64,000 nt of DNA, taken from the NCBI RefSeq assembly GCF_016495865.1, contig NZ_CP054706.1, positions 868,001-932,000 on the forward strand, in the 5' to 3' direction. The DNA is from Salicibibacter cibi (GTDB taxonomy: Bacteria > Bacillota > Bacilli > Bacillales > Marinococcaceae). Positions 14,091-45,620 of the stretch are shown piece after piece. Position 1 is the first letter of the stretch, and every line of letters starts with the position of its first letter. The notes beneath the pieces are model-generated. The model was not told the origin of the DNA, did no database searches, and saw only the letters and a program-made list of their open reading frames with translations. A program made the position numbers and the translations under genes.

Positions 14091-14275
14091 GCCTTGATGT
14101 GCGGTTTATGGAGCCCGAAATGGCTAGGAAGTCCCTAATTCGATCGTTATGAAAGGCTTATGGCGACCTAAACCGTACCGGACCTTCCGTTTCAGTCGCC
14201 ATGAACGATTCAACGCACCTCAAACCGGCAAAAAACGTTGCTCCGGGGTACGATGAAGGGCCCACAATAGCACAC
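14091..14275 (+). repeat. 52-bp-period palindromic array D (four units)
   Basis: In the 580-bp gap behind tsaD, ATG of the unit core falls at 14097, 14149, 14201 and 14253, exactly 52 bp apart. Units 1 and 2 keep the pattern ATG-N8-ATGG (14097/14108 and 14149/14160) seen in the array at 45.4 kb. Unit 2 carries TTATGGCGACC and unit 3 GTCGCCATG, halves of the same palindrome. Units 3 and 4 have decayed right halves. No ORF with an RBS is present. Confidence 0.75.
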
Positions 14276-14300
14276 TCAAATGAATAAACATTGCCCGCAA

Positions 14301-14332
14301 AGGAGCCATGAATAGATCATGGCTCCTTTTTA
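14301..14332 (+). terminator. Terminator downstream of tsaD
   Basis: Stem AGGAGCCATGA / TCATGGCTCCT (14301-14311 with 14317-14327) followed by TTTTA. It faces + and is about 330 bp after tsaD, so it would end any transcript through array D. Confidence 0.8.
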
Positions 14333-14391
14333 TGGTACAGCCACGGAATTAGAAACTCGTGAGCGACTGTGGAAAAGAAAAATGTGTACGT

Positions 14392-14521
14392 AGTGGATAA
14401 GTGGACGCGCACCCCTCTTCTCCGACTTTTGAAGTGTTAACTGCGGATCCGTGGATAAATGCCTTTTTTTGTGGGTGGAACCGGCAAAAACCCGACGGTC
14501 CGCGTGTGAAGTTGTGAATAA
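14392..14521. other. Three DnaA-box-like 9-mers
   Basis: On the minus strand: TTATCCACT (14392-14400), TTATCCACG (14450-14458) and TTATTCACA (14513-14521, consensus match), spaced about 60 bp, just before the ydiF stop. They may be chance, or a minor DnaA titration site. Confidence 0.3.
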
Positions 14522-14554
14522 CTATGTGGAAATTGTGGAAAGCCCGATGCCTTG

Positions 14555-16489
14555 TCACTGGGATGCGTCTAATTGCAATGCTTCCCATTGCTCCATCAGT
14601 TGTTCCAATTCGGCTTCCTTTTCATGAATGTCTTCTTGTATACGGTTGGCGCGGGCATGGTCTTCATAGACATCCGGATGGAGCATGGACGATTGCAGCG
14701 TTTCCGTTTCTTCTTCCAGTTGGCTGATTCTATCTTCAATCGCTTCAATTTCCCGGCGTCGCTTCCGGGCGATTTTTTTATCTTCTTTTTCTTGCGCAAA
14801 CGACTGTTTATTTTTGTTTTCCACAGGTTTTTCCACGTAATTGTCCTGAAGTTGCGCCCGTTCTTCGGCTTCCGCTTTCTTTTCCAAGTAGTAATCATAG
14901 TTGCCAAGATATGTGTGTAGTTGATCATCTCCGGAGAATTCGACGGTTCGTGTGGACATCCGGTTCAGGAAATAGCGGTCGTGGGAAATAAATATCATCG
15001 TGCCGGGATAGTCGATAAGGGCAGTTTCCAACACTTCTTTGCTGTCTAGGTCCAGATGGTTCGTCGGCTCATCAAAGAGAAGCAAGTTTGCTTTTTGCAT
15101 CATTAGTTTTGCAAGCACGAGCCGTGCTTTTTCCCCGCCGCTGAGACTGTGGACAAGTTTGTACACATCTTCGCCGCTAAAAAGAAACCGGCCGAGCACT
15201 GTGCGTATGTCTTTTTCGACAACTTGGGGGTGCTCGTCCCATAATTCATCGAGGACGGTTTTATTCGTATTAAGTTGAGCTTGCTCCTGATCATAATAGC
15301 CAACGGTCACTTTGCTTCCGTAATGAATATCTCCTTCCGTGGGAGCAAGTCGCTTTCCGAGGATTTTAAGGAATGTTGTCTTTCCGGTTCCGTTCGGGCC
15401 GATGACGGCCACATTCTCTCCTCTTGTCACCGCAAAGTCGGTTGCGCGAAATAACGGATCGCTGCCAGGGTAAGCAAACGTAATCCCTGTTGCGGCCAGC
15501 ACGTCATTTCCGCTTGTTTGTTGTATTTCAAAAGACATTGTAGCGCTTTTGGCATCTGCGAGAGGGGCATCAACCCGCTCCATACTCTCTAATTTTTTCC
15601 GCTTGCTTTGTGCTCGTTTTGTTGTGGACGCGCGTGCGATATTTTTGGCGACGAATGTTTCCAGTTGTTCAATTTCCGCTTGTTGCTTGTCATACGCTTT
15701 TTGTTGCAGTTCGGCGCCCTTTGCTCTTTTTTCCAGAAACGCACTGTAATTTCCGTGGTACAAGGTCGCTTTCGTATGTGCCAGTTCGTATACTTTCGTG
15801 ATTACTTTATCCAAAAAATAACGGTCGTGGGAGACGATCAATACCGCTCCTTCATAGCTGTTCAAGTAATTTTCCAGCCATGTTAACGTTTCAATGTCCA
15901 AATGATTTGTCGGTTCATCCAAAATGAGCAAATCCGGTTTCGTGAGCAAAAGTTTTCCGAGCGCAAGTCGTGTTTTTTGACCGCCGCTTAAAGAAGAGAT
16001 CGGTAAATCATAGGAAAGCTGATCAAAATTCAGTCCCGACAAGATGCTTTGGATATCGGCTTCATAGTGGTAACCGCCGGACGATCGGAAGAATTCTTGT
16101 TTTTCATCGTATTCCTTTAATACGGCTTCGTAGGACGCAGGGTCGCCATAGATGGAGGATTCCGCCATTTTCGCTTCCAGTTCGCGCAACTCCATTTCAA
16201 CACCGCGGAGCGAGGAAAAGACCGTTAACATTTCCTCCCAAATGGTGCGCGTGGATTCAAGACCGGTATCTTGGGCAAGGAAACCCATTGTTTGTGATTT
16301 GGGCATCATAACTGAGCCGCTGTCATAAGGCGCTTGTCCTGTGATGATGTTGAGCAACGTCGTCTTTCCAGTTCCGTTGCGTCCGACGAGTGCGGCGCGG
16401 TCGCCGTTTTTGATTTCCATCTTAATATCCTGTAAAATCGTTTCAGCACCAAAAGATTTGGTCACACGATCGCATTGTAAAACAATCAT
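14555..16489 (-). CDS. ydiF: ABC-F family ATPase (YdiF-like)
   Basis: 644 residues from ATG 16489 (MIVLQCDRVTKSFG), matching the family start; GTG 16501 and ATG 16498 lie on top of the AAAGGG RBS. Two ABC cassettes without membrane domains: first Walker A GRNGTGKTT (about 35), signature LSGGQKTRLALGK and Walker B LLILDEPTNHLD; second Walker A GPNGTGKTT (about 360), LSGGEKARL and LLFDEPTNHLD. The linker contains the ABC-F arm KNIARASTTKRAQSK. The C-terminal 100 residues are a charged coiled coil. ABC-F proteins act on the ribosome E site, relieving stalling or giving antibiotic tolerance. The gene lies opposite its neighbours, as in B. subtilis. Confidence 0.93.
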   Translation of the reverse strand: MIVLQCDRVTKSFGAETILQDIKMEIKNGDRAALVGRNGTGKTTLLNIITGQAPYDSGSVMMPKSQTMGFLAQDTGLESTRTIWEEMLTVFSSLRGVEMELRELEAKMAESSIYGDPASYEAVLKEYDEKQEFFRSSGGYHYEADIQSILSGLNFDQLSYDLPISSLSGGQKTRLALGKLLLTKPDLLILDEPTNHLDIETLTWLENYLNSYEGAVLIVSHDRYFLDKVITKVYELAHTKATLYHGNYSAFLEKRAKGAELQQKAYDKQQAEIEQLETFVAKNIARASTTKRAQSKRKKLESMERVDAPLADAKSATMSFEIQQTSGNDVLAATGITFAYPGSDPLFRATDFAVTRGENVAVIGPNGTGKTTFLKILGKRLAPTEGDIHYGSKVTVGYYDQEQAQLNTNKTVLDELWDEHPQVVEKDIRTVLGRFLFSGEDVYKLVHSLSGGEKARLVLAKLMMQKANLLLFDEPTNHLDLDSKEVLETALIDYPGTMIFISHDRYFLNRMSTRTVEFSGDDQLHTYLGNYDYYLEKKAEAEERAQLQDNYVEKPVENKNKQSFAQEKEDKKIARKRRREIEAIEDRISQLEEETETLQSSMLHPDVYEDHARANRIQEDIHEKEAELEQLMEQWEALQLDASQ

Positions 16490-16555
16490 TCGTTTCATCA
16501 CCCTTTAAAATGTATATAAAAAATGGCCGGGCCAAGCGTTTCGCTAATTATGCTA

Positions 16556-16583
16556 CTGACAAGTGTAGCAAACATGTTATACT
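16556..16583 (+). promoter_or_regulatory. Promoter of rex
   Basis: CTGACA (16556-16561), 16-bp spacer, TATACT (16578-16583) in the divergent ydiF-rex gap. No obvious Rex operator palindrome was seen here. Confidence 0.55.
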
Positions 16584-16619
16584 TAAGAAACGATAAGCAG
16601 GTTGAATAGTGGAGGCTTT

Positions 16620-17252
16620 ATGGACGAACTGCAAAAAATTCCACAGGCAACAGCGAGACGTTTGCCACTTTACTATCGATACTTGGAACATTTCTACGCT
16701 TCGGGAAAAACAAAAGTATCTTCTACAGAATTAAGCCATGCAGTCAAAGTTGATTCAGCGACGATTCGGCGGGATTTTTCGTATTTTGGAGCGTTGGGTC
16801 GCAAAGGATATGGTTATGATGTCCAACGCTTGATTGCTTTTTTTCGAAAAACGTTGGATCAAGATGAGGCGACACCCGTCATTCTCATCGGTGTCGGAAA
16901 TCTTGGGAAAGCATTGCTTCATTATAACTTCGGGGAGAATAATAATACGCGAATCGTAAAAGCGTTTGATAATGACGAGACAGTCATTGGAAAAACCATC
17001 GGTGGTGTCCCCGTTATTCATATGGACGATTTAAAAAGAGAAGTCGATGAATCGATATGGGCCGCAATTGTTGCTGTCCCGTCGACTGCGGCGCAAGAGG
17101 TCGCGGATAAGGTCGCTGATACGCCCATCGAGGGGATCTTGAATTTCACCCCCTCCCGTATGACGGTGCCTTCGCATATTCGGGTGCATCACATTGATTT
17201 GTCGGTCGAATTGCAATCGCTCATCTATTTTTTGAAACATTATCCGCTATAA
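16620..17252 (+). CDS. rex: Redox-sensing transcriptional repressor Rex
   Basis: 210 residues. ATG 16620 follows GTGGAGG by 4 nt; a TTG at 16602 has no RBS. Winged-helix DNA-binding domain (about 1-75: [41 protein letters not shown]) is followed by a Rossmann domain ([18 protein letters not shown], about 86-103) that binds NADH/NAD+, and the C-terminal swap helix [13 protein letters not shown]. Rex represses fermentation and anaerobic respiration genes until NADH rises. It is adjacent to the tat genes, as in B. subtilis. Confidence 0.96.
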
Positions 17253-17269
17253 AAAAGGAGGAATATCCC

Positions 17270-17458
17270 ATGGGAGGTATGGGTGGTCCGAGCATTATTT
17301 TAATCATTATTGTCGCTTTGTTGATCTTCGGTCCGGGTAAACTGCCGGAAATGGGCAAAGTGGCCGGAAATACATTACGTGAATTTAAAAATGCTACGAA
17401 AGGACTCACGAATGATTCCGAAGAACAGAAGAAAGAGGACAAGCAAAATCATAGATAG
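17270..17458 (+). CDS. tatA: Sec-independent protein translocase TatA (TatAy type)
   Basis: 62 residues. One N-terminal membrane helix (PSIILIIIVALLI) is followed by the FGPGKLPE hinge and an amphipathic helix (MGKVAGNTLREFKNATKG), then a charged tail. It forms the size-adjusting pore of the twin-arginine export system. RBS AAAGGAGG, 17 nt after rex and 12 nt before tatC, so probably one operon. Confidence 0.95.
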   Translation: MGGMGGPSIILIIIVALLIFGPGKLPEMGKVAGNTLREFKNATKGLTNDSEEQKKEDKQNHR

Positions 17459-17470
17459 GATGGGTGTTCG

Positions 17471-18232
17471 ATGAAACAACGGGAGATGCCGTTCCGTGCC
17501 CATTTTGAAGAGTTACGGAAACGATTGATCATTGTCGCGATATTTCTTGTCGTGGGGTTACTTGTCGGTTTTTTCATTGCGCCCCCTGTGATTGCTTATT
17601 TGCAAAGCATCCCGGAAGCACAGGATTTCCCGATGAACGCGTTTCAGTTAACGGATCCTTTGCGCGTATACGTTAATTTTGCGTTTTTTATCGCGATTAT
17701 CATCATTTTGCCGGTGATTTTCTATCAACTTTGGGCGTTTATCGCTCCGGGCTTGGCGGAAAAAGAACGGAAGGTAACCCTTTCTTACATTCCGATCGCG
17801 ATGGTTCTTTTTCTGGGCGGGCTCGCTTTTTCGTATTATGTGCTTTTGCCGTATTTCATGGAATTTCTGGGGAACATTGCCGAGCGGCTCAATATTACGG
17901 AGCAGTACGGAATTAATGAATACTTTTCTTTCCTGTTTCGTATGACGGTACCGTTTGGGTTTCTTTTTCAACTGCCGGTTGTGGTTCTGTTTTTGACCCG
18001 ATTGGGTTTGATTACGCCAAACTTTTTACAGCGGATTCGCAAATATGCTTATTTTGTGTTGCTTGTCATTGCAGGCTTTATCACCCCTCCTGATTTGGGT
18101 TCCCATCTCATCGTAACCGTACCGCTTTTCTTGTTGTATGAACTGAGTGTCGTGATTGCCCGGTACGCCTTCAGGAAGCGAATGAAAGAAGAGGCTGACC
18201 GGCAAAAAGAAATGGCAACGAATAATCAATAG
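17471..18232 (+). CDS. tatC: Sec-independent protein translocase TatC
   Basis: 253 residues, six predicted membrane helices. The N-terminal cytoplasmic motif PFRAHFEELRKRLI and the loop with QLWAFIAPGLAEKERK are the TatC regions that recognise the twin-arginine signal; the conserved SPPD-like ITPPD is near residue 205. It pairs with the upstream TatA to make a minimal TatAyCy-type translocase. No Tat substrate gene lies next to it in this window. Confidence 0.96.
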   Translation: MKQREMPFRAHFEELRKRLIIVAIFLVVGLLVGFFIAPPVIAYLQSIPEAQDFPMNAFQLTDPLRVYVNFAFFIAIIIILPVIFYQLWAFIAPGLAEKERKVTLSYIPIAMVLFLGGLAFSYYVLLPYFMEFLGNIAERLNITEQYGINEYFSFLFRMTVPFGFLFQLPVVVLFLTRLGLITPNFLQRIRKYAYFVLLVIAGFITPPDLGSHLIVTVPLFLLYELSVVIARYAFRKRMKEEADRQKEMATNNQ

Positions 18233-18291
18233 ATATAAAACTTCCATCTGAGAATCGACTTTCAGTCGTTTAAAAAGCAATAAAATGCTAA

Positions 18292-18317
18292 AGGCGCATG
18301 GGGTACCCCATGCGCCT
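18292..18317. terminator. Strong palindrome between tatC and a convergent MFS gene
   Basis: AGGCGCATGGGG-TA-CCCCATGCGCCT is a perfect 12-bp inverted repeat. No long T tract on either side (TAGAAATGTTAATTTTT on +), but its convergent position fits a bidirectional terminator. Confidence 0.65.
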
Positions 18318-18350
18318 AGAAATGTTAATTTTTACAGGCGGCCCCCTAAA

Positions 18351-19823: not shown

Positions 19824-20053
19824 TTGATCGTCTCCTCTCTTTTCGTAAATTACATCTAATGAGGCAACTTTGCTATCTTACACATAGAACAATTCCTTTT
19901 CAACAAAAATGCCTTTTATGTTGAAAACATTTATATATCATCTAGACGAAGAAACTTTGTTCACCGTTTCGCAAACGTTCAAAGCGTTATCAGATCACTT
20001 GTAATATTTATTTGGACTGCAAATCGTTTCTTCAAAGGGTGATGCAAGATTTA

Positions 20054-20077
20054 GCATCTGAAATATGTTTCAGATGC
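20054..20077. other. Perfect hairpin in the 420-bp gap between two membrane-protein genes
   Basis: GCATCTGAAA-TATG-TTTCAGATGC, 10 bp with no mismatch and no T tract. The gap (19824-20245) carries no supported gene. The repeat lies 170 bp before the DUF418 gene and could be an operator or an mRNA structure. Confidence 0.45.
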
Positions 20078-20245
20078 ATGTCAATCTCATGGGAAAGTCT
20101 AAATAGGAAGTCAAAAAAAGACGCAATGGATATACGGATCATCCATGCGCTGATAAGATAGTCAGAGCTAACAAGGAATAGAAGAACCATTGTCAAGATG
20201 CCTACGGCACTCCCAAGCAAAAGATATTTTAGAGGTAGTCATAAA

Positions 20246-21442: not shown

Positions 21443-21512
21443 AGAAAATGGCTTGGTACAAAGCAATCCCTTTCGATGAGGGGGGGTTCTTGTGTGGGGA
21501 TATTTTCCAAAT

Positions 21513-21669: not shown

Positions 21670-21712
21670 CAGGGGTGGGTGCACATGGATATGCGGTACT
21701 TTAGTGCCGATG

Positions 21713-26259: not shown

Positions 26260-26990
26260 GTGTGCCCCGCAGCCATGCGATCTAAGTGGTTGAAGTCCAC
26301 TCGGTAACTTTCCCCTTTAAAGTGCCGTAGCCGGTGAAAAGCCCTCGTCCGGCATAGGGCAGGGTGGACAGGGTGTCTCCCGCAAGGGGGGATCTGAAAG
26401 GTCTACAGGCAAAGTCCAGCCCGGAACATGATGTGAACCAGAGGTGGCGGCACCCCTTACACGAAGAAAGGGAGGGAAAAGATTCACAAACGGTTACGTC
26501 CAGATTTAGGACAAGAGATCGGGGTATTGATGAAAGCAACGCTTCCCTACCGAAGTGTCGAATATTTGGATAATCGGATCAGCAGATACAGCATGAAAAT
26601 GGGGAAATGCGAGATTACAGGCATGGATCTGCCTGCCTCGGAAGTTCATTGCCATCATTACATGCCAAAGCAATTGGGTGGAACCGATCAATTCCATAAT
26701 TTGCGAATTGTTCATAAGGATGTACACCGTCTCATCCATCATACGGATGATGAAAAGGTGCGAATCCTTCTTCGTCAATATAAAATCAACGCATCGCAAT
26801 TAGAAAAGATCAACAGGTATCGAGAACAATGTAGATTACGAAGCATCGAGCAATCCTAATCACGGAAGTAACGAGGAACTTATGATCCAGTAATTTCGTT
26901 AGATGGAACGCGGAGTGCGGGGAAACTTGCACGCTCCGTGTGGAGCAGGGGAAAAGCTGGAGATAACTTCAAATGCTTACCTATTGCTGA
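26260..26990 (+). mobile_element. Group IIC intron, internally deleted
   Basis: The 5' end GTGTGCC lies directly behind a terminator hairpin, the known target type of class C introns. Domain V is at 26908-26941: exactly 34 nt, an 8-bp lower stem ACGCGGAG/CTCCGTGT, a 2-nt CG bulge and an upper stem TGCGGG-GAAA-CTTGCA with a GAAA tetraloop. A domain VI-like stem AGCAGG...CTATTGCT follows and the intron should end near 26990. Sequence before the ORF (GATCTGAAAGGTCTA, CCGGAACATGATGTGAACC) resembles domain I of such introns. At about 730 nt it is far shorter than the usual near-2-kb ORF-bearing copy, because most of the reverse-transcriptase ORF is missing. The 3' end is approximate. Confidence 0.85.
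26470..26859 (+). pseudogene. C-terminal fragment of group II intron reverse transcriptase (HNH domain)
   Basis: An open frame without a proper start encodes the end of a maturase: KIHKRLRPDLGQEIGVLMKA, then an HNH endonuclease-like domain with GKCEITGMDL, HCHHYMPKQLGGTDQFHNL and HKDVHRLIHH (two zinc/HNH half-sites). The reverse transcriptase and X domains, several hundred codons, are absent. The 5' side (CTTACACGAAGAAAGGGAGG) looks like the normal leader before the ORF, so a single internal deletion joined leader and C-terminus. An ATG at 26530 could still start an HNH-only product of about 109 residues. Confidence 0.85.
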
Positions 26991-27049
26991 CAATTGTGGA
27001 ATAACGATTGAACGATTATCCCGTAATTTTATAATAAGAAAGGGGTAAG

Positions 27050-33299: not shown

Positions 33300-33599
33300 A
33301 TGGGGAAGAAAAAGAATGCCACTTGGGCAGAAGCCAAAAAACGTTGTCGTCTGAATCAAGCTGACATCCAAATGGCAAAAGAACTGGGGATGACACCGAA
33401 AAGCTTATTGAAAAACATCCCTTCCCCTTCACAACAGTGGAAAGCGCCTGTAAAGGTATGGATTCGTGATTTATATGAGAAAAAATTCGGGAAGCAACTT
33501 TCGATTGAGTACTCTAATCAACCACAGGATCGTAAAAAGAAGGTGAACCAGTCTGAAAAAATAAGTCACATTTCGGATGAGGATTTGCCTTTTTCCTGA
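33300..33599 (+). CDS. Small basic hypothetical protein, 3' end altered by an IS
   Basis: 99 residues from ATG 33300, 9 nt after AGAGGG; ATG 33291 is too close to it. The protein is basic and helical (TWAEAKKRCRLNQADIQMAKELGM, then SPSQQWKAPVKVWIRDLYEKKFG), like small conserved bacillus proteins of unknown function. The last Ser codon and the stop lie in the IS1380 end beginning at 33595. Removing the IS and one TTTT copy restores CCT-TTT-TAG, so the original protein ended in DEDLPF; the insertion added a single residue and probably did not destroy it. Confidence 0.75.
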   Translation: MGKKKNATWAEAKKRCRLNQADIQMAKELGMTPKSLLKNIPSPSQQWKAPVKVWIRDLYEKKFGKQLSIEYSNQPQDRKKKVNQSEKISHISDEDLPFS

Positions 33600-35266
33600 A
33601 TTATTCATACCTCGACGCGAGAGCATAATTTGATATCAAATCCAAGGATTTTTGTTTCGATCACAAAAATACGGTGATCATTTAAGCATAGTGACAGGAT
33701 TTAAGCCACCATCACCGAAAAATCATGATTTTTGGACATACGTCTCCCTTGGTCTTAAATGGGCTTTTAAAAAATATGGCATATTCGATCTTTGTTTCTC
33801 ACTCTAGTTTTAAGGCTTGGACACGTCGGAGCACATTCCAGAAAAATGCTTGATAGACAAAACTGGACGATAATTTAAAGTAAAAGGAACGTCCTGATTT
33901 GACCAATTTGCTTGCGACCTTTATCACTCGGGTTCGTATCGTCTGTATCTGCATGCTTTTCTGTTCCTCCGGAAAACAGAGGGTGCGCAACCAGTTCGTG
34001 AAGTTATAAGCAAGTAGACTAAGGGTCATCCTTGCTTCGTTGGCCTCGAAAGAATGACTACTCATTCTGTCCAGGTCAAAGCCGTTTTTCGCTTCCTTGA
34101 TGTAATTTTCCATGGTTCCCCTCTTTTGGTAAGAGCGGACGATATCCTTGGGCGTAAAGGCGCTTGTAAGGCTTGTAACGAAGAACGAATGCGTGAAAAA
34201 CAATTCGCCTGCCGGACGAACGGATTGGACAATCACTTTTCTTGGTTTCGCCCATGATTTCGCTTGATACTCCGTTTCTTCAAAGTAACATTCGGTCTTT
34301 GTCATATCGGATGGAAACGTGGACGGATGGAGCTCATCAGCCAATCGCTGCAGGTTGGGGTTGGATTTTAATCGAATCACGTAATAGACGGATTCGGCTT
34401 CACAGAGTTCGTACAGGTCCGGAACCGCAAAACCACTGTCGCCACGCAGGAACGGCGTCGTCCCCGGAAACTTCTGATTGTAGTGCGTGATAAGGGGTTT
34501 CACAAAATCCACCACACCATTCGACGTGTAGACATTGCCCGGACGAAGCTTGGCCTTCAGAAAATCACGGGTGACACCATCAAAAGCAACCAATGGGTGA
34601 AAGCCAACAGTGCCGTAATGGGCATTAAATGCCGATGATGCCTGATCACCGTATGTATCTGCATGGGTTGAATCCAAATCAAGGATCAATGCATCGGACG
34701 CTCGATGTCGGTGTACTTTATCCAAGAGCTCCTGGTTCGCTCGTTGAAGCTGTTCCATCGACTCGGCATCAAACCGTTCAAAAAAGCGTGACAAACTAGG
34801 CTGAGAAGCTAAAGCATCTTTGCCAAGGATTTGGGTGAAGACAGGGTCATTGGTCAATTGATCGGCTGCATCGTCTTCGGCATAGCCGGCAATCATTTGA
34901 TAAACCTTTTGGCGAAGCAATGCTTCATTGGCGTGAACATGATACAACCTTTCATCTTTGAGGTTTAGATGCTTGTCCAACGTAGAGAAAAAGCCGATTT
35001 TTTCATCGAATTCTCTGAATAATAGTTCTCCTGTATCGGAGGAGAGTGCGCCTCCGTCATTGGATAATTTGATCTGACGATTGAAATCAAGGGTTGATTG
35101 CGATAAAGTAGCCATTAGAAGAATCCTTTCTGTGGTTATTTTTGGTAATTTAACTCTAACAGAAAAGGATTCTTTTTTCATTTATTAGATGAACGTTCAA
35201 AATTGCTAGACTCCTTGGCGCACAATGGTTAGACACTAATCTATGGATTTCTGTGAATTATTCAGG
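33595..35266 (-). mobile_element. IS1380-family insertion sequence
   Basis: 1672 bp bounded by inverted repeats CCTGAATTATTCA (33595-33607) and, on the other strand at the right end, CCTGAATAATTCA (35254-35266). TTTT flanks both ends (33591-33594 and 35267-35270), a 4-bp target duplication as expected for the family. One transposase gene on the minus strand. It appears intact and possibly active. Confidence 0.88.
33799..35115 (-). CDS. IS1380 family transposase
   Basis: 438 residues from ATG 35115 (MATLSQSTLDFNRQIKLSNDGG), the usual start of the family. DDE residues lie in LILDLDSTHADTYG (about residue 145), FLRGDSGFAVPDLYE (about 220) and KRGTMENYIKEAKNGFDLDRM (about 340, the YREK-like region with Glu). 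Domain DDE_Tnp_1-type. No frameshift or stop. An 8-bp palindrome-bearing stretch with AAAGGATTCTTTTTT lies upstream of the gene. Confidence 0.92.
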   Translation of the reverse strand: MATLSQSTLDFNRQIKLSNDGGALSSDTGELLFREFDEKIGFFSTLDKHLNLKDERLYHVHANEALLRQKVYQMIAGYAEDDAADQLTNDPVFTQILGKDALASQPSLSRFFERFDAESMEQLQRANQELLDKVHRHRASDALILDLDSTHADTYGDQASSAFNAHYGTVGFHPLVAFDGVTRDFLKAKLRPGNVYTSNGVVDFVKPLITHYNQKFPGTTPFLRGDSGFAVPDLYELCEAESVYYVIRLKSNPNLQRLADELHPSTFPSDMTKTECYFEETEYQAKSWAKPRKVIVQSVRPAGELFFTHSFFVTSLTSAFTPKDIVRSYQKRGTMENYIKEAKNGFDLDRMSSHSFEANEARMTLSLLAYNFTNWLRTLCFPEEQKSMQIQTIRTRVIKVASKLVKSGRSFYFKLSSSFVYQAFFWNVLRRVQALKLE

Positions 35267-35483
35267 TTTTTAGCTATGTAAAAAGGAAAAAGTTTGGCTG
35301 ATAAGTGAGTTGTTTTGGCTAATAAAAGGGCTGCATTGTATCAGAATAATGGACCGTCCTTGTCAACGTTGGGTGAAAAATATCGGCCCTGCCCGCTCCA
35401 TAATCAAGTACGTGAAAGCAGATAAATTAAGCTGAAATTACAATTACCGCTAGACGTACGCGCCGGCGGTTTTTAACGTTCGA

Positions 35484-35690
35484 ACGGAGGCGTACAATTG
35501 GGAGTTAGAACCCGAACAGCAGTGAAAAACGGGTTGAAGGGTGACTAACCGAGTCATTAGCACCCGAACAAAGGCAAAAATACGCTCGAAAGGTCACTAA
35601 TCATACAATTAACACCCGAACAGTGGAGGTGGATCGATTAAAAGGTCACTAACCGTATAATTGGTATCCGGTAGCGGTAAAAATCAAAAC
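35484..35690 (+). repeat. 52-bp-period array A (three to four units)
   Basis: GGTSACTAA occurs at 35540, 35592 and 35644, and CCCGAACA at 35511, 35563 and 35615, all exactly 52 bp apart; a decayed ATCCGGTAG falls at 35666. Units 1 and 2 form imperfect palindromes: GGTGACTAA...TTAGCACC (35540-35564) and GGTCACTAA...TTAACACC (35592-35616). An indel-shifted relative (GGCGTACAATTGGGAGTTAG) precedes them. The sequence is unrelated to the 14-kb and 45-kb arrays. The gap from the IS to 35841 holds no gene. Confidence 0.75.
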
Positions 35691-37265: not shown

Positions 37266-37273
37266 GGTACCGG

Positions 37274-37317
37274 AAGGCCATGCATCAAGCTCAACCACTT
37301 GATGCATGGCCTTTTGG
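37274..37317 (+). terminator. Terminator of the nucleotidyltransferase unit
   Basis: 16-bp perfect stem AAGGCCATGCATCAAG / CTTGATGCATGGCCTT (37274-37289 with 37298-37313) followed by TTGGG. Confidence 0.85.
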
Positions 37318-37396
37318 GTCATCCTTTATGTCTGCATGGATGTTCGACATATGAGAAACGTATAAATAGAAAATGACAGGACGAGGAGGGATGGTT

Positions 37397-38212
37397 ATGC
37401 CTGATGAGGTATGGTTTGCCTTCGCCTTGACTTTATTCGCGGGGCTTTCAACCGGTGTGGGCAGTTTAATTGCATTTTTTGCATCAACGACTAATACACG
37501 CTTCCTTTCATGGGCGATGGGATTTTCCGCAGGCGTCATGATTTATGTTTCTTTCGCGGAGATTTTTCCTGAATCGTTGGAAATCCTTGTAGGTGCTACG
37601 GGGGAAGTGGCAGGCAATTGGTTGACAGTCATCGGTTTTTTCGGCGGAATGCTGTTGATTGCCTTGATCGATAAAATTGTACCTGACCTGGGCAATCCCC
37701 ATGAAGTGAAAAAAGTGGAAGATATGGATGAATCACCGAAAAAGGCGAGAGCAAAACATCCGGAATTATTGAAAATGGGGACGTTTACCGCGCTCGCGAT
37801 TACGATTCACAACTTTCCGGAAGGGATCGCCACCTTTACTGCCGCGGTTCAGGATCCTACGCTCGGTGTTGCTATTGCCGTAGCGGTAGCTATTCATAAT
37901 ATCCCGGAAGGCATCGCTGTGTCTGTCCCGATTTACTATGCAACCGGGAGCAGAATAAAAGCACTCACGTATTCTTTTTTGTCAGGGCTGGCGGAACCCC
38001 TTGGCGCGGTTGTCGCGTTTTTGATTCTAATGCCATTTTTAAATGATATTTTATTTGGTATTGTGTTTGCATCCGTTGCCGGTATCATGGTCTTCATTTC
38101 ACTTGATGGCTTAATCCCCGCGGCCAAGGCCTATAACAGGGAACATTCCTCCATCTATGGATTTGTGTTGGGAATGGCTGTGATGGCAGTGAGTTTATTG
38201 TTGCTCATGTAA
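37397..38212 (+). CDS. zupT: ZIP-family metal transporter (ZupT-like)
   Basis: 271 residues. ATG 37397 lies 6-7 nt after GAGGAGGG; ATGs at 37373 and 37391 are before or abutting it. About eight membrane helices. The metal-transport motifs are intact: HNFPEGIATF in TM4 and HNIPEGIAVSVPIYYATG in TM5, with EIFPESLE earlier. A charged loop KKVEDMDESPKKARAKHPELLK separates TM3 and TM4. ZupT imports zinc and other divalent cations. No Zur box was recognised. Confidence 0.92.
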   Translation: MPDEVWFAFALTLFAGLSTGVGSLIAFFASTTNTRFLSWAMGFSAGVMIYVSFAEIFPESLEILVGATGEVAGNWLTVIGFFGGMLLIALIDKIVPDLGNPHEVKKVEDMDESPKKARAKHPELLKMGTFTALAITIHNFPEGIATFTAAVQDPTLGVAIAVAVAIHNIPEGIAVSVPIYYATGSRIKALTYSFLSGLAEPLGAVVAFLILMPFLNDILFGIVFASVAGIMVFISLDGLIPAAKAYNREHSSIYGFVLGMAVMAVSLLLLM

Positions 38213-38311
38213 TGGAATAATGTCAGGTTAATATGTTTCACGAAATCCTTGCCGCGCAAAGGACAAGAGTAAGTTGAAAATAAATCTCCCCCAAAATACC
38301 AACACTCAACG

Positions 38312-38480
38312 TTTAGCCCTCGATTGGGTTTTGAGGACTCTTTGTGCTGCACGGGATTCATATGAGTTCTCAGGATAGTGCTTAGCGGACTCTGAGCGAT
38401 GCTTGGGAGCCAAACGAGTCCTCAGGATAGAGGTTTGGGAACTCATAATGTTTTCCAAGAGTCAAATGAGTCCGCAAATG
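38312..38480 (+). repeat. 52-bp-period array B (three to four units)
   Basis: GAGTYCTCAGGATAG at 38364 and 38416, and a decayed GAGTCCGCA at 38468, are exactly 52 bp apart. The opposite-sense half GGACTC/GAACTC is at 38335, 38387 and 38439, again 52 bp apart. Each unit is therefore a roughly 29-bp imperfect palindrome (GAGTYC...GRACTC). A weak earlier unit begins at 38312. The 620-bp gap between zupT and the SDR gene (38213-38839) has no other supported content besides the palindrome at 38807. Confidence 0.75.
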
Positions 38481-38806
38481 CAAAAAACACGATATGCTCA
38501 ACCATCCTTTTCGTCTTTCCATGGGTGTCGCGACGCGTCATGGTTGTTTTGGGGCATAAAAACGAATGATCTACGAACAGAAACGATGTTGGTTCGTGGA
38601 AGTAAATTTTGAGTGTAGTATAAACGAGGCGTGAACCAGGTCCCGTTTTTATGCCTAAAGCAATGGCTCCTTAAGGTTAGACGTCGTTTCTTTCGCATGA
38701 AACCATTAAAATTATGAAAGGGCTTACTTTAGCGTTGAAATAGTGGTAACGTTGTAATATGCTAGAGTAGCATTCAGCAATTTTGCCCAAAAACTGACTG
38801 AGCGCT

Positions 38807-38820
38807 CAGTATGGAGCTTG
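38807..38820. promoter_or_regulatory. Perfect 14-bp palindrome before the SDR gene
   Basis: ACTGAGCGCTCAGT lies 20 bp before the SDR start. It looks like the operator of a TetR-family repressor such as those controlling fatty-acid degradation genes in bacilli. No such regulator gene is in the window. Confidence 0.5.
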
Positions 38821-38839
38821 AATCCAAGGAGTTGTATAT

Positions 38840-39607
38840 ATGCAAATAAAAGACGCAACAGCTATTGTGACCGGAGGTGTCTCCGGTTTAGGTGGAGCGA
38901 CGGTAAGAAAAATTGTTTCCCAGGGCGGAAATGCAGTAATTTTTGACGTGCAAGAGGAAAAAGGAGCGAGCTTGGCCGAAGAGCTCGGCGAGCAAGTCCG
39001 ATTTATCAAAACGGATGTCACCAGTGAAGAGAGTGTGCAAAACGCTGTGGACCATGCGGTTGAAGCGTTTGGCCAGATTGATATCGCGGTTAATTGCGCG
39101 GGGATCGGAGCTGCGGAGAAAACCGTCAGCAAAAAAGGGCCGCATGACCTTGGTTCTTTTTCAAAGGTCATTCAAGTGAACTTGATTGGCTCGTTTAATG
39201 TCATTCGCTTGGCTGCGGAAAAAATGGCCGAAAATGAAGCGAATGATGAAGGGGAGCGTGGCGTGATCATAAACACCGCTTCCGTTGCCGCGTATGAAGG
39301 GCAAATCGGTCAGGCTGCTTATAGTGCTTCCAAAGGCGGGATCGTCGGGATGACATTGCCGATTGCAAGGGATCTCTCACAGCACGGCATTCGGGTGATG
39401 ACTATCGCGCCGGGGCTTTTTGACACTCCGCTTTTTGCGGGATTACCGGAGAAAGCCAGAACAGCATTGGGAGAAATGACACCGTTTCCACAGCGGCTTG
39501 GCGACGTGGAAGAATACGCGCAATTGGCGGAAAGCATCATGGAAAATCCGATGCTCAATGGGGAAGTGATCCGTCTCGACGGAGCCATTCGTATGCAACC
39601 CAAATAA
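38840..39607 (+). CDS. SDR-family 3-hydroxyacyl-CoA dehydrogenase-like protein
   Basis: 255 residues, RBS AAGGAG. Classical short-chain dehydrogenase: [14 protein letters not shown] (about 11-24) binds [11 protein letters not shown] follows, and the catalytic Ser-Tyr-Lys lie in [11 protein letters not shown] and AAYSASKGG (about 145-167). DVQEEKG puts an Asp after strand 2, favouring NAD over NADP. The loop [28 protein letters not shown] resembles type II 3-hydroxyacyl-CoA dehydrogenase (HSD10). Its neighbour is an acyl-CoA dehydrogenase, which supports a role in acyl-CoA oxidation. Confidence 0.85.
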
Positions 39608-39643
39608 TTGGCACGTAAAAACGAGGATTGGAGGTACAGAGCG

Positions 39644-40795: not shown

Positions 40796-40805
40796 TGCAA
40801 AACAA

Positions 40806-40845
40806 GAGAGGGCTCCGGAAACGGAGCCCTCTCGTATATTTTTCT
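40806..40845. terminator. Terminator between acyl-CoA dehydrogenase and PBP genes
   Basis: GAGAGGGCTCCG-GAAA-CGGAGCCCTCTC, perfect 12-bp stem with GAAA loop, followed by GTATATTTTTC on +. It can serve both convergent genes. Confidence 0.9.
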
Positions 40846-43302
40846 TTAATCTTCCGTGTCCTCATCCTCATCCTCATCGTTCTCGTCGCTTTCGGCGTCC
40901 TCGCCATCAGCATCGTCGTCCCCGTTATCCTCCGTATTTTCGTCACTATCATTGGGTTCTTCTTCGGGTTGCTCCTCCGGTGGTCCTTCCGGCTCCTCAT
41001 CCTCCGGCGCTTCTTCGGTTGGTTCGTCTGTTTCTTCGTCCGCAGGTTCTTCTTCCGTTTCTTCCTCTTCAGCGGAATCATCTATTGATTCTTCTTCTGT
41101 CTCTTCCTCTTCAGTGGAATCATCCGTCGATTCTTCTTCGATAGGTTCATCGACGGATTCGTCATCCGGCGCTTCTTCAATCGGCTCGTCAGGAGTTTCT
41201 TCTTCGGTGTCTTCTTCCAATGGGTCATCTACATCGTTTTCTTCTTCCGGTTGTTCGGAATCGCGCTCAGAAGAATCATCTTGCTGCGGTACTGTTGGCT
41301 CGGTTCCGCAAACAAATAGTTCACTGTCCCCGCAGATGGAATCAGGCCGTGAGAAATCTTCTGTTTCATCTCCGGAGTGAACGTGTGCCATCATATGACG
41401 GAATATATCCCTGGCAATTTGCTGTTCTTCGCCTTCAGCTAAATAACCGCTTCCGCGTCCATCCCCGTACCCTGTCCAGACTGCAGCAGTATAACGAGTC
41501 GTATAACCGTTAAACCAAATGTCCGGAACGCCGCCGTCAGGGACCCCATATCGATCTCTCTCTTCTTGGGAAAAATTTGATGTTCCCGTTTTTCCGGCGA
41601 GCGGCAAATCGTCCACATTTGCCCGCCGACCGGTTCCGGCCGGATCATTGACGACGCCTTTGAGCATATCCGACATCATGTAGGCGGTGTAGTCGTTCAT
41701 GGCGCGTTCCGATTCCGGGTTCAGGTCAATTTCCTGTCCGTCCCGGAAAACAATCTTACGTACGCTGTGTGGTTCATTGTATATTCCATCGTTTCCAAAG
41801 GCCGCGTATGCACCTGCCATATCCAGACTCGAAACCCCGTCGCTGAAGCCTCCCAAAGCGTAGCTTTCCTCAATGTTATTTTCAAAGGTAAGCCCGAGAC
41901 TTTCCGCGAATGACTGGGCGTTTTCAAGGCCAACTTCCTGCATCGCTTTCACCGCGGGAATATTTAATGAACGTACCAAAGCTTCACGCATGGAAACACT
42001 GCCGCTATAGTTGCCGCTATAGTTTGTAATTGTCGTACCGTCGGAATATTCATGGGGAGCATCGACGATTTGCTCTCCGGTGGACCACTGTAAATGATCA
42101 ATGGCAGGACCATAATCCAGCAATGGTTTTACGGTGGAGCCCGGTTGGCCGCTGGCAGCTGTCGCATGATTCCAGCCTCTTTCGGCTTCGCTCTCCTGCC
42201 GGTTGCCGACGATGGCGCGAATCGCTCCGGTTTGGGTATCCAAAAGGGTGAAGCCAACTTGGAAAAGGTCATCGTCGGGATATTGATGAATGTATTCATC
42301 GCTTTGGATCACAGTTTCCGCATACTGTTGCGCGTCCGGTTCAAGGGTCGTATAAATGTCAAACCCGGCGGCGTACAGGTCGATGGTCTCGAACCCATCG
42401 ATGGACTCCACCTCTTCCATGACGTGATCGACAAACGATTGATAAGCGAAGTCATTATTTGCAGGTGTGAAATCCAATTGGTCCTCAATATCTATGGATC
42501 TGGCTTCCTCTGCTTCGTCACTTGTAATGAGCGCTTCATCCTCCAACATGGAAAGGATCAAGTTCCTCCGTTCTTCGGCAGCTTCCGGATTGCTGTCCGG
42601 ATTATAGTAAGAAGGACGACGCGGGATGGCGGCCAATACTGCGGCATCGGCAATGGTGAGTTCGCTTAAATCTTCTTTATTAAAATAGCGAATGGAAGCT
42701 TCTCCAACCCCCCAAGCGCCGCTGTCAAAATAACTGATGTTCAAATACATTTCCAAAATCTCATCTTTGGAATATTGCCGTTCCATTTGCAGGGAAAGCC
42801 ATTGTTCTTGCACTTTTCGCTTGAGCGTTTGGTCTGTTGACAAAAACGCTTGCTTGACGAGCTGTTGCGTGATGGTACTTGCGCCTTCAGCCCCAAAGCC
42901 ATCGGTAATATTTGCCGTGATGGCCCCGCCGATCCGATAAAGATCAATACCTCCGTGATCATAAAAGCGGGTATCTTCAACGGCAATAAAAGCATTTTTC
43001 AAATGCTCAGGCATTTCTTCAATATCGCGATACGTACGGTTTTCCGTTCCTTGTAGTTTACCGACCTCCTGGTTGTTCATGTCATAGACGGTCGCTCCTT
43101 CGGCAAACACAAGCTCATCGGGGTCCAGGGGAGGAGCATCCAAAATATACGCGGCTGTTGTTGCCGTTCCTGCAAGGATGGTGACGAACAAAACGATCAA
43201 CGCAATGCCTGTTAACCTTTTGAATATGGGGCGTTTTGTATTTTTTCCCTTTGTTGTTTTTTCTGCGCGGCGTCTTTCCGTCCGCGATTGGTAGTCGGTC
43301 AT
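40846..43302 (-). CDS. Class A penicillin-binding protein 1A with acidic tail
   Basis: 818 residues. A basic cytoplasmic N-terminus and one membrane anchor (about 31-53) precede the GT51 transglycosylase (EDTRFYDHGG, E109; ASTITQQLVKQ) and the transpeptidase: S389-T-V-K392 (SxxK), S445-L-N447 (SxN), K571-T-G (KTG). It polymerises and cross-links peptidoglycan outside the membrane. About 145 C-terminal residues (from about 674) are a low-complexity Glu/Asp tail with EEETEEE-type runs, longer and more acidic than in typical bacillus PBP1 tails, probably extending into the wall. The tail gives a false Ser-rich frame on the other strand. Confidence 0.93.
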   Translation of the reverse strand: MTDYQSRTERRRAEKTTKGKNTKRPIFKRLTGIALIVLFVTILAGTATTAAYILDAPPLDPDELVFAEGATVYDMNNQEVGKLQGTENRTYRDIEEMPEHLKNAFIAVEDTRFYDHGGIDLYRIGGAITANITDGFGAEGASTITQQLVKQAFLSTDQTLKRKVQEQWLSLQMERQYSKDEILEMYLNISYFDSGAWGVGEASIRYFNKEDLSELTIADAAVLAAIPRRPSYYNPDSNPEAAEERRNLILSMLEDEALITSDEAEEARSIDIEDQLDFTPANNDFAYQSFVDHVMEEVESIDGFETIDLYAAGFDIYTTLEPDAQQYAETVIQSDEYIHQYPDDDLFQVGFTLLDTQTGAIRAIVGNRQESEAERGWNHATAASGQPGSTVKPLLDYGPAIDHLQWSTGEQIVDAPHEYSDGTTITNYSGNYSGSVSMREALVRSLNIPAVKAMQEVGLENAQSFAESLGLTFENNIEESYALGGFSDGVSSLDMAGAYAAFGNDGIYNEPHSVRKIVFRDGQEIDLNPESERAMNDYTAYMMSDMLKGVVNDPAGTGRRANVDDLPLAGKTGTSNFSQEERDRYGVPDGGVPDIWFNGYTTRYTAAVWTGYGDGRGSGYLAEGEEQQIARDIFRHMMAHVHSGDETEDFSRPDSICGDSELFVCGTEPTVPQQDDSSERDSEQPEEENDVDDPLEEDTEEETPDEPIEEAPDDESVDEPIEEESTDDSTEEEETEEESIDDSAEEEETEEEPADEETDEPTEEAPEDEEPEGPPEEQPEEEPNDSDENTEDNGDDDADGEDAESDENDEDEDEDTED

Positions 43303-43528
43303 TCGAGCCTCCTCATTTCAGTGCGAGAAGAAGTAATATTTTTGAAAATCATTTTAATTTTTAATATGGTTATCCTCTATCGGCTATTTCTTCTCTTTTC
43401 GTTTAAACCTGTCTTTATTTTAATACAGCCTTCTGAAAACGGCAATGAAAATATTTTCACCAAGCATTTTCACATATATTTGTTCACATAAGGTCAAACT
43501 ACATTAAACGCAAAGGGAGGTAGATATC

Positions 43529-43756
43529 ATGGCAAAACCGGACGATCGTTCCGACAACCCGGAAAGAATTGAAAGAAATATTGGCCATACGATGCAAAAT
43601 ATGAATGAGGCAAAGGATTACGTAAAAGCCCACGTCGATGAAATGAGCGAAGAACAAAAGCAACAAATTGAAGAAAAGAACGAGCGCCGCGAAGAAAGTA
43701 TCGAAGCGATGCGCGATGAAATCAAAGATGAAGCGCGCGACCAACGGCGCGATTAG
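43529..43756 (+). CDS. tlp: Small acid-soluble spore protein Tlp
   Basis: 75 residues, RBS AAAGGGAGGT. The family pattern is clear: KPDDRSDN at the N-terminus, QNMNEAKDYVKAHVDEMSEEQKQQIEEKNERREESIEAM, and an acidic-basic end DEIKDEARD. Tlp proteins are made in the forespore and found in spores; the gene supports endospore formation by this organism. Its own terminator follows. The 226-bp gap before it has AT-rich sequence where a sigma-G promoter would be expected, but no convincing match was found. Confidence 0.93.
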   Translation: MAKPDDRSDNPERIERNIGHTMQNMNEAKDYVKAHVDEMSEEQKQQIEEKNERREESIEAMRDEIKDEARDQRRD

Positions 43757-43762
43757 AAAAAC

Positions 43763-43803
43763 TTGACTTATCGCCAAGGATGGCGAAAGTCAAAGTCTTT
43801 TTG
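43763..43803 (+). terminator. tlp terminator
   Basis: Stem TTGACTTATCGCCA / TGGCGAAAGTCAA with one bulged A, then AGTCTTTTTG. Confidence 0.85.
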
Positions 43804-43993
43804 TATGAAAACACCCATTATTGGAGCAGCGCAAACTCATCAGTATAACCAACATATGTCATGATTATACTTTTTTGCGCCAAATTACTTGTTTTCATTA
43901 TAGATGGTGGCGACATGCTCAATCGCCATGATGGTTTCTTATACTATCATTCGAACAATTTATACATTCTGATAGTGTTAAAAAATGTAAACG

Positions 43994-44027
43994 AACAGGC
44001 AAGTCCACGATGGCTTGCCTGTTTTCA
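43994..44027 (+). terminator. Intrinsic terminator before the TPR gene
   Basis: ACAGGCAAG / CTTGCCTGT (43994-44002 with 44013-44021) followed by TTTCATTT. No gene was found between it and tlp. Confidence 0.75.
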
Positions 44028-44077
44028 TTTCACAAATTATGCTACAATATTTCGCAAATAATATGGGAGGGAAATTC

Positions 44078-45121
44078 ATGTCATCCCAACAGCACATGCA
44101 AATTAATCCGCGTCTCATTTCCATGCTGGCCGGCGAAGACGTGGCGACGATAAAAAACAAACCGACGTTAACGATGCTCCCTGGGGTTTATGGAAAACTT
44201 ATCCACAAACACAAACGCCACATTCAAAAAAAATATCCGGAAAATGAACATTATCTTCGATGTACACATTGTAACCGGAAGGGGAAGTATGATTTACAAC
44301 TCGTGTTAGTCAATAACAAAAACATATTGGAGGCTGAGGGGAATCCTGATGCACGCGAAGTGATGGATTGGATTCAACCGACCGGGTATTTTCGCTGTAA
44401 ACACTGCAACAGTGCCGGCCAATGGGTCAATGATAACCCTGTATTTCCGTTTGAACTTATGGGCGCAGTAAAGAAAAGCTCAGAAGGTGAAAGCCGTCCC
44501 GGTTATTATGTGGGGTCTCATCAACTTTATGACGGTACCATTCCTCATTGGGCGACGGATTCCGAGGAGCATTATTTAAATAAAATAGAAGAAGGTAAAG
44601 ATGAGGCTTATGTGTGGAATCGGCTCGGCAATATGTATTATTCGGGTGGGCGGCCCGAGTTGTCTGCTGCTGCTCACGAACATGCCATACGTTTAGATCC
44701 CGCACAAATAGAATCGCATTTTTCCATTGCCAATTTGCTGGCGGAAATGGGGGAATGGACAAAAGCGTCTGACCATTATCGCCGAATGTTGATTTATGCC
44801 CATGCTTATACTCGCTTGACACCGGAAAAATTTCGGAACATGTTGGCAAATGGATTAAGCGAATCATTGAAAATGTATGCAGATTCAGAAGGGCGCGTTC
44901 AATTTTTGCCCGATGGAGAAGAAAACAAAGAGGCTTTACAAGCGGCGGGTTTAAATCAGAATAATCCAAATGAATTAATTTTTCACGAGATGGACCTTCA
45001 TCCCGACGACATCGAATCATTTTATCCACTTGCGGAGATGTATATGGGTGATCAACGAATGGCTATATCGAGAAGGAAACGAACGTTGAAATTACCACGG
45101 AAAAAGATGAAGAAGGCGTGA
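44078..45121 (+). CDS. Zinc-ribbon plus TPR protein, function unknown
   Basis: 347 residues from ATG 44078, 7 nt after GGGAGGG. The N-terminal 60 residues are soluble. Two CxxC pairs make a zinc ribbon: RCTHC (62-65) with FRCKHC (107-110). After a linker comes a TPR segment (AYVWNRLGNMYYSGGRPELSAAAHEHAIRLDP, then IESHFSIANLLAEMGEWTKASDHYRRML, about 185-255), and a charged C-terminus with a third TPR-like helix pair, ending in a basic run. This architecture suggests a protein- or nucleic-acid-binding adaptor. No family recognised and no operon partner. Confidence 0.75.
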   Translation: MSSQQHMQINPRLISMLAGEDVATIKNKPTLTMLPGVYGKLIHKHKRHIQKKYPENEHYLRCTHCNRKGKYDLQLVLVNNKNILEAEGNPDAREVMDWIQPTGYFRCKHCNSAGQWVNDNPVFPFELMGAVKKSSEGESRPGYYVGSHQLYDGTIPHWATDSEEHYLNKIEEGKDEAYVWNRLGNMYYSGGRPELSAAAHEHAIRLDPAQIESHFSIANLLAEMGEWTKASDHYRRMLIYAHAYTRLTPEKFRNMLANGLSESLKMYADSEGRVQFLPDGEENKEALQAAGLNQNNPNELIFHEMDLHPDDIESFYPLAEMYMGDQRMAISRRKRTLKLPRKKMKKA

Positions 45122-45374
45122 AAATAGAGTGCGCACGTTGGGCAAGCATTAGCCCCGAGATTAGCCAGACGAAAAAGCATGGATCTTAATCGTGTTGGCA
45201 GACTTTCTCGGTATCAGCGCGATCGATTAAGTTGCTGATCCCAAATGCGGGCTTGACGAAAATTTCATGATAGCTTGTTGTATGATGCAACCGCTCGTGT
45301 TTGAGATTGTAGGAATCTTGGCGGTCGCGCTTATTTTGGCAGAAAACCTTTCCTGCTTCAGGCTACCGTTTTGT

Positions 45375-45620
45375 TGCGACGACCGTCATGGAGAAGTTAT
45401 GGTGCTCAAACGCAGGCACTGATCGCTTTTACGGTCACCATGAAGAGCGCATGGCACCCGAGTTTGCCCGAATCCGGTCTTCCCGGTCGCCATGGAACGT
45501 TTATGGCGACCGAAAACGTTCGAGTTTGACCTTTACGGTCATCATGGAGAAGTCATGGCGCCCCACAACAGGAAACAATCGCTTTTACGGTCACCATGAA
45601 GAACTTATGGCGTCGATCCT
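45375..45620 (+). repeat. 52-bp-period palindromic array C (five units)
   Basis: The core ATG falls at 45388, 45440, 45492, 45544 and 45596, exactly 52 bp apart, and a second ATGG falls 11 bp later in all five. The central unit is a perfect palindrome GGTCGCCAT-N9-ATGGCGACC (45485-45511); the others are one-half decayed versions (GGTCACCATG, GGTCATCATGG, TCATGGCGCC). Linkers of about 25 bp are also partly similar (ATCGCTTTTACGGTC twice). It fills most of the 586-bp gap between the TPR gene and hrtA, where no gene is seen. Confidence 0.85.

Follow-up and report, generated by a model that had tools for sequence, protein, structure and literature searches.

Arrays with a 52-bp step in Salicibibacter cibi as proposed tandem modules of BOX-like mobile elements and candidate dyad protein-binding sites

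Arrays and genes in the window

The window, by which we mean the whole stretch of DNA analysed, comprises 64,000 nucleotides of Salicibibacter cibi (NCBI RefSeq assembly GCF_016495865.1, contig NZ_CP054706.1, positions 868,001 to 932,000). It carries four intergenic arrays, near 14, 35, 38, and 45 kb, whose units follow each other at a step of 52 bp. A preliminary description of the window, made from its letters alone, had reported these arrays and their exact step; direct reading, self-match, and pattern and matrix matches bear it out. The arrays, the features joined to them, and the neighbouring genes are as follows.

14091..14279, + strand: array A at 14 kb, about four diverged units of the GGTCGCCATGAA..TCATGGCGACC type, in the convergent tsaD/ABC-F gap (direct reading, pattern match, matrix)
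14302..14331, + strand: terminator-like hairpin with a T run, adjoining the 14-kb array (direct reading)
35487..35685, + strand: array E at 35 kb, about 3.8 units, GGGTGACTAA..TTAGCACCC
38297..38493, - strand: array B at 38 kb, about 3.8 units, GAGTCC..GGACTC
38470..38580, - strand: decayed end module of an IS4-type element (CAGGCGCGTTGATT ends), joined to array B (alignment to copies in L214 and L209)
45376..45620, + strand: array A at 45 kb, units at 45388, 45440, 45492, 45544, and 45596
12904..13971, + strand: tsaD, left of the 14-kb array (Pfam TsaD)
14555..16501, - strand: ABC-F type ATPase, right of the 14-kb array (Pfam ABC_tran, ABC_tran_Xtn, ABC_tran_CTD)
33799..35181, - strand: DDE transposase, adjoining the 35-kb array (Pfam DDE_Tnp_1_4)
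37373..38212, + strand: ZIP transporter, left of the 38-kb array
38840..39607, + strand: short-chain dehydrogenase, right of the 38-kb array
45708..46409, - strand: ABC transporter ATPase, right of the 45-kb array

A sliding self-match at lag 52 picks positions 35507, 38321, and 45457. Its other places in the window, at 2.3, 41, and 47.8 kb, are taken to be low-complexity or coding repeats. The 14-kb array has diverged too far for the self-match threshold and is found with the 45-kb core as pattern, by a match at 14142 (0.00 expected from shuffles); the family-A matrix locates four units at 14 kb and six at 45 kb. Tandem Repeats Finder, run on the window, reported none of the four arrays. The window's TsaD has four good matches among named organisms, two from Halobacillus and one each from Salirhabdus and Tenuibacillus, at 60-67% identity, in keeping with a halophilic member of the Bacillota. 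Rfam matches over the window are confined to rRNA, tRNA, and a group II intron (26906-26991, 55.6 bits), and the arrays have no match. Two 5S rRNA genes (8089-8205 and 9865-9981) lie 1.8 kb apart in one rRNA operon, with a 378-codon open reading frame (ORF) between them.

The 14- and 45-kb arrays belong to one core family (A), while the 35-kb (E) and 38-kb (B) arrays match neither the A core nor each other, just as first described. The full form of the family-A unit is TTTCGGTCGCCATGAA.CG.TCATGG.G.CCGAAA. Further families are C (GGGACG..CGTCCC) and D (GAGGGATTAC..), and others occur in the genomes G003, G006, and G009. When the arrays were compared with each other by blastn, B, C, D, and E had no similarity to A. 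The core measures 25 bp in the G009 family and 27 bp in A, and the step is 52 in both. The centre of the G009 core (ATGAAGCG) looks related to that of family A, and by eye the resemblance takes in the unit at the tsaD locus of G002. The centre of the 14302..14331 hairpin (CCATGAA..TCATGG) also resembles the family-A core; hairpins with T runs stand at the tsaD/ABC-F place in all four species compared.

The units had been called imperfect palindromes, and this stands for the families better than for their members. Consensus sequences of the families are clearly dyad-symmetric, but symmetry is uneven across the window units. In an ungapped test the best dyad scores are 0.52 (35 kb), 0.52 (38 kb), and 0.68 (45 kb), with runners-up at 0.50, 0.42, and 0.52, respectively; an early strict palindrome test had shown little. 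Folded singly with DNA parameters, two of the eleven window unit cores are much more stable than shuffles (35539, z -3.6; 45485, z -5.0), one is slightly more stable (z -1.2), and eight are no better.

Prevalence of the 52-bp period

The window genome (G000) was sampled over 864 of its 3,814 kb, as 40 evenly spaced 20-kb stretches plus the window. Non-coding places were scored at every lag, with at least 46 of 78 positions required to be alike; the mask was a simple ORF mask (at least 90 aa) independent of annotation, and the samples of other genera were small. Lag 52 is found at 19 places, followed by lag 104 (11), 21 (4), 51 (3), and 42, 53, and 106 (2 each). Apart from multiples of 52, which are the next commonest lags by intergenic segment, no lag from 20 to 300 exceeds four in this sample, and at lags 30-120 no such repeat arose in five dinucleotide-shuffled versions of the segments. 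The preliminary description had allowed that neighbouring periods might be as common; 52 proved far commoner. Counted by intergenic segment, 19 of 347 repeat at lag 52 in G000, 20 of 205 in G003, and 7 of 39 in G009. By extrapolation from the sample, the window genome would hold on the order of 80 arrays.

The period recurs beyond this genome. Two of three sister species are positive, with other sequences at period 52; the first samples yielded 13 lag-52 places in 400 kb of G003 and three in 200 kb of G002. Other genera yielded seven in 320 kb, six of them in G009 and one in G006. No array was found in 60-80 kb sampled from each of G004, G007, G008, G010, and G011, at a slightly lower threshold. 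We also inspected mutually dissimilar palindromes within one locus and found that they are not phased at 52 (one triple at 52, two at 51, mean 1.1 per lag). Each array therefore consists of copies of one unit. An earlier, looser test of dissimilar palindromes in G003 was strongest at lags 26 and 78, which we take to reflect a second dyad in family A.

The genome of another genus also mixes unrelated unit families: at L143:13343-14160 in G009, some 15 units of another type (CGACGTCATAG..TATGAAGTC) form an array no more than 6 kb from two GGTCTTATG arrays.

Linker length and linker sequence

Position matrices for three families (A, B, and G009) were used to locate neighbouring copies up to 170 bp apart. 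The spacing is exactly 52 in 70 of 84 pairs for A, 69 of 75 for B, and 34 of 36 for G009. A non-redundant set was obtained by removing linkers at least 60% alike and keeping pairs 45-60 apart. In this set 17 of 20 A pairs (the rest 51, 53, and 54), 9 of 11 B pairs (the rest 53 and 55), and all six G009 pairs are exactly at 52.

Pairwise identity in family A is 0.58 for the core and 0.30 for the linker (37 non-redundant units, each chosen for having a neighbour at 52). The corresponding values are 0.68 and 0.36 for family B (12 units), and 0.73 and 0.30 for the G009 family (7 units). Among adjacent pairs at 52, linker identity falls below 0.4 in 36 of 70 (A), 15 of 34 (G009), and 4 of 69 (B). 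Taken together, spacings and identities demonstrate that linker length is largely kept and linker sequence is not. An exact 17-bp copy elsewhere in the sample exists for 16 of the 70 A linkers; these are presumed to be other copies of one A element. The claim of a period without shared sequence is thus upheld, since unrelated unit families and another genus also step at 52.

Range and age of the arrays

Each of the four window arrays has a counterpart at the orthologous place in G003, that of the 45-kb array lying in L151. The 38-kb array is also found in G002, with more units and in a rearranged place. Judged by eye, the content of the tsaD/ABC-F gap varies: A units stand there in both G000 and G003, a different unit in G002, and mixed hairpins with roughly the same step in G001. 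A family-D array of G003 (L093:11176) has related-looking units in G001, and the matching place in G000 is some 50 bp long and has no array. Some of the arrays, at least, are therefore old at their locus and have changed in unit number. The stretch 33595-35313 of the window, which carries the DDE_Tnp_1_4 transposase just before the 35-kb array, is missing at the orthologous place in G003 and is probably a recent insertion.

The family-A pattern occurs in 7 of 61 genomes, with 66, 42, 15, and 251 matches on both strands in the four genomes of the genus; outside the genus there are eight matches in G006, and one and two in two other genomes. The B pattern occurs in 6 of 61 genomes (283, 61, 126, and 256 matches in the genus, one and two in two others), and the G009 pattern in one of the 29 family genomes scanned, with 69 matches on the forward and 23 on the reverse strand. 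These ranges indicate that the unit sequences are almost restricted to a genus while the 52-bp step is common to more.

Several arrays as modules of mobile elements

Several arrays lie within mobile elements. We read 21 copies of a B element with CAGGCGCGTTGATT ends (10 in G000, 7 in G002, and 4 in G003), of 228-1301 bp and with up to about 20 units each; further ends were also listed. Seventeen of them are flanked by a 9-bp target duplication. One unit separates the 262-bp copies from those of 314 bp. The same CAGGCGCGTTGATT terminal inverted repeats bound an insertion sequence (IS) of 1262 bp, of which one copy was read. It codes for a 373-aa protein that is an IS4 family transposase (NCBIfam, 193 bits against a cut-off of 115; Pfam DDE_Tnp_1). 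By hand pairing, G003 has seven places with CAGGCGCGTTGATT ends 1261-1262 bp apart. A 9-bp duplication was found for four of five IS copies examined, and a lag-52 repeat looked for in five IS copies was found in none. Alignment of the 38-kb window array with the B element runs the whole length of the array and continues to a degenerate end near 38580; the array is therefore taken as a relic, a decayed copy, of this IS4-type element.

CTAGTGCAACG is the left end of a second B element; this end is clear at L098, L110, and L108 and decayed at L040. The second element shares the core of the CAGGCGCGTTGATT element and has a different linker. Its unit number is one in L040 and L108, about five in L110, and about eight in L098. 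Fixed ends around a variable number of tandem units, the design of BOX elements, are thus found both in the 228-1301 bp copies and in these four loci.

Arrays of family A occur in the interior of an element that measures about 480 bp and is bounded by CTAGTGCA and TGCACTAG; 24 copies of 399-514 bp represent it. Its left end has eight matches in G000, at least 30 in G003 (40 of 51 candidates were scored), three in G001, and none in G002. One imperfect empty site was found among the 24 copies tested, and no autonomous partner of the CTAGTGCA elements was found by a search with the left end only. For family C, one locus (L050) has its array flanked by CTAGTGCAGA and TCTGCACTAG. Relatives of array E occur in the sampled stretches L150, L123, L042, L097, and L112; the L097 and L112 copies differ by one exact 52-bp unit and single-base indels. 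At L042:15900-16260 an E-type stretch directly adjoins a stretch of B-element left module, an arrangement that might come from insertion of either element into or next to its neighbour. No plasmid copies of two elements and one array were found, in records from which those near the window's own genome may be left out. We are confident of the mobile-element anatomy of families A and B, and less so of that of family C with its one locus. The preliminary description had considered that the arrays might be fragments of one known, decayed mobile element: several do lie in mobile elements, but these are of more than one family and none could be named from a library.

The elements resemble miniature inverted-repeat transposable elements (MITEs), examples of which in the excerpted text of PMC3733652 are RUP, Bcr1, and NEMIS, in sharing ends with a resident IS, in their target duplications, and in having no coding capacity that we could see. 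They differ in that the interior is a tandem array of dyad units, which sets the length of the element. A likeness also exists to repetitive extragenic palindromic (REP) sequences and bacterial interspersed mosaic elements (BIMEs), which are high-copy, clustered, imperfect palindromes between genes (excerpts of PMC3733652; see also PMC2817692). Arrays moved as REP/BIME by a Y1 transposase of the REP-associated tyrosine transposase (RAYT) type would be dispersed and clustered in this way, and the genome has two Y1_Tnp matches above the family cut-off. These matches, however, are partial (83 and 45 of the model's 121 positions), the units here stand head to tail at one fixed step, and the B elements have DDE-type ends and mobility with 9-bp duplications. 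We give this explanation hardly any credence.

Another dispersed element, some 110 bp long and containing the two hairpins GGCTTTTCGCCAAGCTTTTATGGCGAAAAGCC and GCAGGTAAGAAAGTT..ACTTTCTTACCTGC, has no copy in the window and was recorded at the following places.

L025:4952-5015: about 110-bp two-hairpin element, at the place where G003 has an array (L093:14321)
L048:3282-3347: the same element
L059:594-657: the same element
L108:10185-10246: the same element
L027, about 8381-8454: the same element

Duplex DNA or RNA

The two arms of the units could be held as a hairpin or read separately. The Watson-Crick cells observed among arm pairs number 934 against 934.6 expected in A (164 distinct sequences), 531 against 537.3 in B (67), and 257 against 254.5 in G009 (32), where the expectation lets both arm sides vary independently and the test is weakened by matrix-based detection, which disfavours double changes. 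Counts at expectation suggest that the arms are conserved independently, as for two half-sites read as sequence. Mismatched arm pairs are frequent within families, such as T-C at pair 3 of A in 52 of 164 sequences.

We inspected the gene context of 57 arrays flanked by a gene on either side, a set that takes in related copies and orthologues. It comprises 21 convergent, 28 codirectional, and 8 divergent arrays, compared with 74, 251, and 80 among 405 intergenic regions of at least 250 bp (convergent excess, p 0.0025; divergent deficit, p 0.37). The 28 codirectional arrays are a median of 90 bp from the upstream stop and 241 bp from the downstream start, and the sense strand folds better in 18 of them. 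All eight codirectional B arrays have one orientation to the genes, three of them being mutual orthologues and one ambiguous; by eye there is no consistent relation of B-array orientation to the replication strand. Whole elements lie in the same orientation as the genes in six cases and opposite in seven, in both element families (A and B). The 20 whole B elements are 1 convergent, 13 codirectional, and 6 divergent, and the 24 whole A elements are 8, 13, and 3, respectively.

These data bear on the proposal, made in the preliminary description, of a series of RNA hairpins. Hairpins of this kind are predicted for transcripts of BOX elements; here the arrays would act at the RNA level, mostly in 3' regions. 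The convergent preference, the nearness to upstream stops, and the uniform orientation of codirectional B arrays agree with such a role. However, arm covariation is absent, eight of the eleven window units fold no better than shuffles, the sense strand is the more stable in just 18 of 28 cases, element orientation is evenly split with one of 20 B elements convergent, and Rfam has no match in the arrays. With no covariation, weak folding, and unbiased orientation, the RNA hairpin series is not favoured, and we consider it improbable. A second way of keeping palindromes is through cruciforms or single-strand hairpins corrected by template switching, with the period arising from slippage between hairpins. 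At the tsaD locus, judged by eye, arms differ between families yet stay complementary, which is in line with this mechanism and which selection on hairpins would likewise give. The frequent mismatches within families speak against it, and slippage does not produce a fixed 52; it appears very improbable. We read the units as two half-sites in duplex DNA rather than as an RNA hairpin.

Discussion

In the explanation that we propose, the arrays form the tandem modules of non-autonomous mobile elements built like BOX. Their end modules would be moved in trans by insertion-sequence transposases, and between these ends up to about 20 head-to-tail units of 52 bp would be gained and lost whole. Each unit may be a dyad site for a dimeric DNA-binding protein. 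Since 52 bp is close to five turns of B-DNA, as the preliminary description correctly pointed out, the step would set successive dimers on one face of the DNA and could allow cooperative binding throughout the array; the proteins that read the several unit families would then be distinct or would have diverged. For this explanation as a whole, BOX-like mobile arrays whose units are dyad sites phased at about five turns, we estimate a probability of roughly 0.47. Within it, selection on the phasing of candidate protein-binding sites is, though at less than even odds, the likeliest cause of the 52-bp step. A bolder form holds that the step is a selected architecture, in which unrelated dyad families of several genera are held at five turns as putative platforms for an oligomeric DNA-binding protein and carried repeatedly as cargo by elements of different transposase classes; this we consider rather doubtful. 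The original interpretation in terms of phasing or fixed length gains from the kept linker length and the recurrence of the step in unrelated units, but it had not considered a BOX-type design of mobile elements.

The main rival dispenses with both binder and phasing selection. The arrays would be selfish tandem repeats, their 52-bp length fixed once in an ancestral array and kept by unit-wise copying. This agrees with units that are gained and lost whole, with the centres of the A, G009, and G002 tsaD units that look related by eye, with the lack of phasing among unrelated palindromes in one locus, and with the few steps of 51-55. Against it, A linkers are at chance identity, yet 17 of 20 non-redundant pairs keep their length; from a rate argument, more indels would be expected without constraint. 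B, C, D, and E are, moreover, without similarity to A in the blastn comparison. We regard selfish repeats as only slightly less likely than selection on phasing.

Several points weigh against mobile arrays of phased dyad sites. G001 has no array at the lag threshold (0 in 200 kb), yet it has 33 forward and 28 reverse matches to the B pattern. Many of the 70 A pairs at 52 are copies of one element, and 5 of the 37 non-redundant steps are 51, 53, 54, or 55. Six D arrays and six G009 arrays were aligned without any conserved end module appearing, so that mobility is not extended to them, and the 14- and 45-kb arrays match non-orthologous A copies within the array only; the evidence of mobility hence covers part of the arrays. 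The eight window units that are poor palindromes imply that many sites would be half-sites, the complementary arms at the tsaD locus leave room for selection on hairpins, and the dimer-binding role is a proposal.

The plan of the proposed elements is a known one. According to the excerpted text of PMC3049150, BOX elements of Streptococcus pneumoniae and S. suis have end modules flanking a variable number of tandem internal modules, show MITE features, and are proposed to owe their mobility to a resident IS; one internal module of S. suis is found between different end modules. Both traits, fixed ends around variable tandem units and one unit core between different ends, recur here. The likeness is one of plan. 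Here, several unrelated internal units have a common 52-bp step in more than one genus, and an RNA role is not favoured.

Two further systems share features with the arrays. The sopC locus of plasmid F has 12 copies of 43 bp, each with a SopB palindrome, and is alike in that its dyad sites stand in tandem, with a constant step close to a whole number of helical turns. Here, by contrast, there are many chromosomal loci and several unit families. Clustered regularly interspaced short palindromic repeats (CRISPR) similarly combine a conserved repeat with unrelated linkers of fixed length. The repeats here diverge, adjacent cores having mean identities of 0.65 (A), 0.76 (G009), and 0.89 (B) and falling short of near-identity, and in B and E elements whole units including the linker are gained or lost together. 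Listings of open-licence PMC papers contained none on 52-bp palindromic arrays in this bacterial group. The BOX plan is thus the known part, and the near-constant 52-bp step across unrelated units is the new one.

Tandem modules of mobile repeats are usually handled as sequence families. In the arrays described here the sequence varies while the geometry is nearly constant, whichever of the unrelated units or element ends is considered and in no fewer than two genera. If selection does act on a 52-bp ruler, these genomes would supply replicates in large number for the search for a protein that recognises the geometry of DNA. They would also make it possible to study why internal arrays exist in BOX and other small mobile elements.

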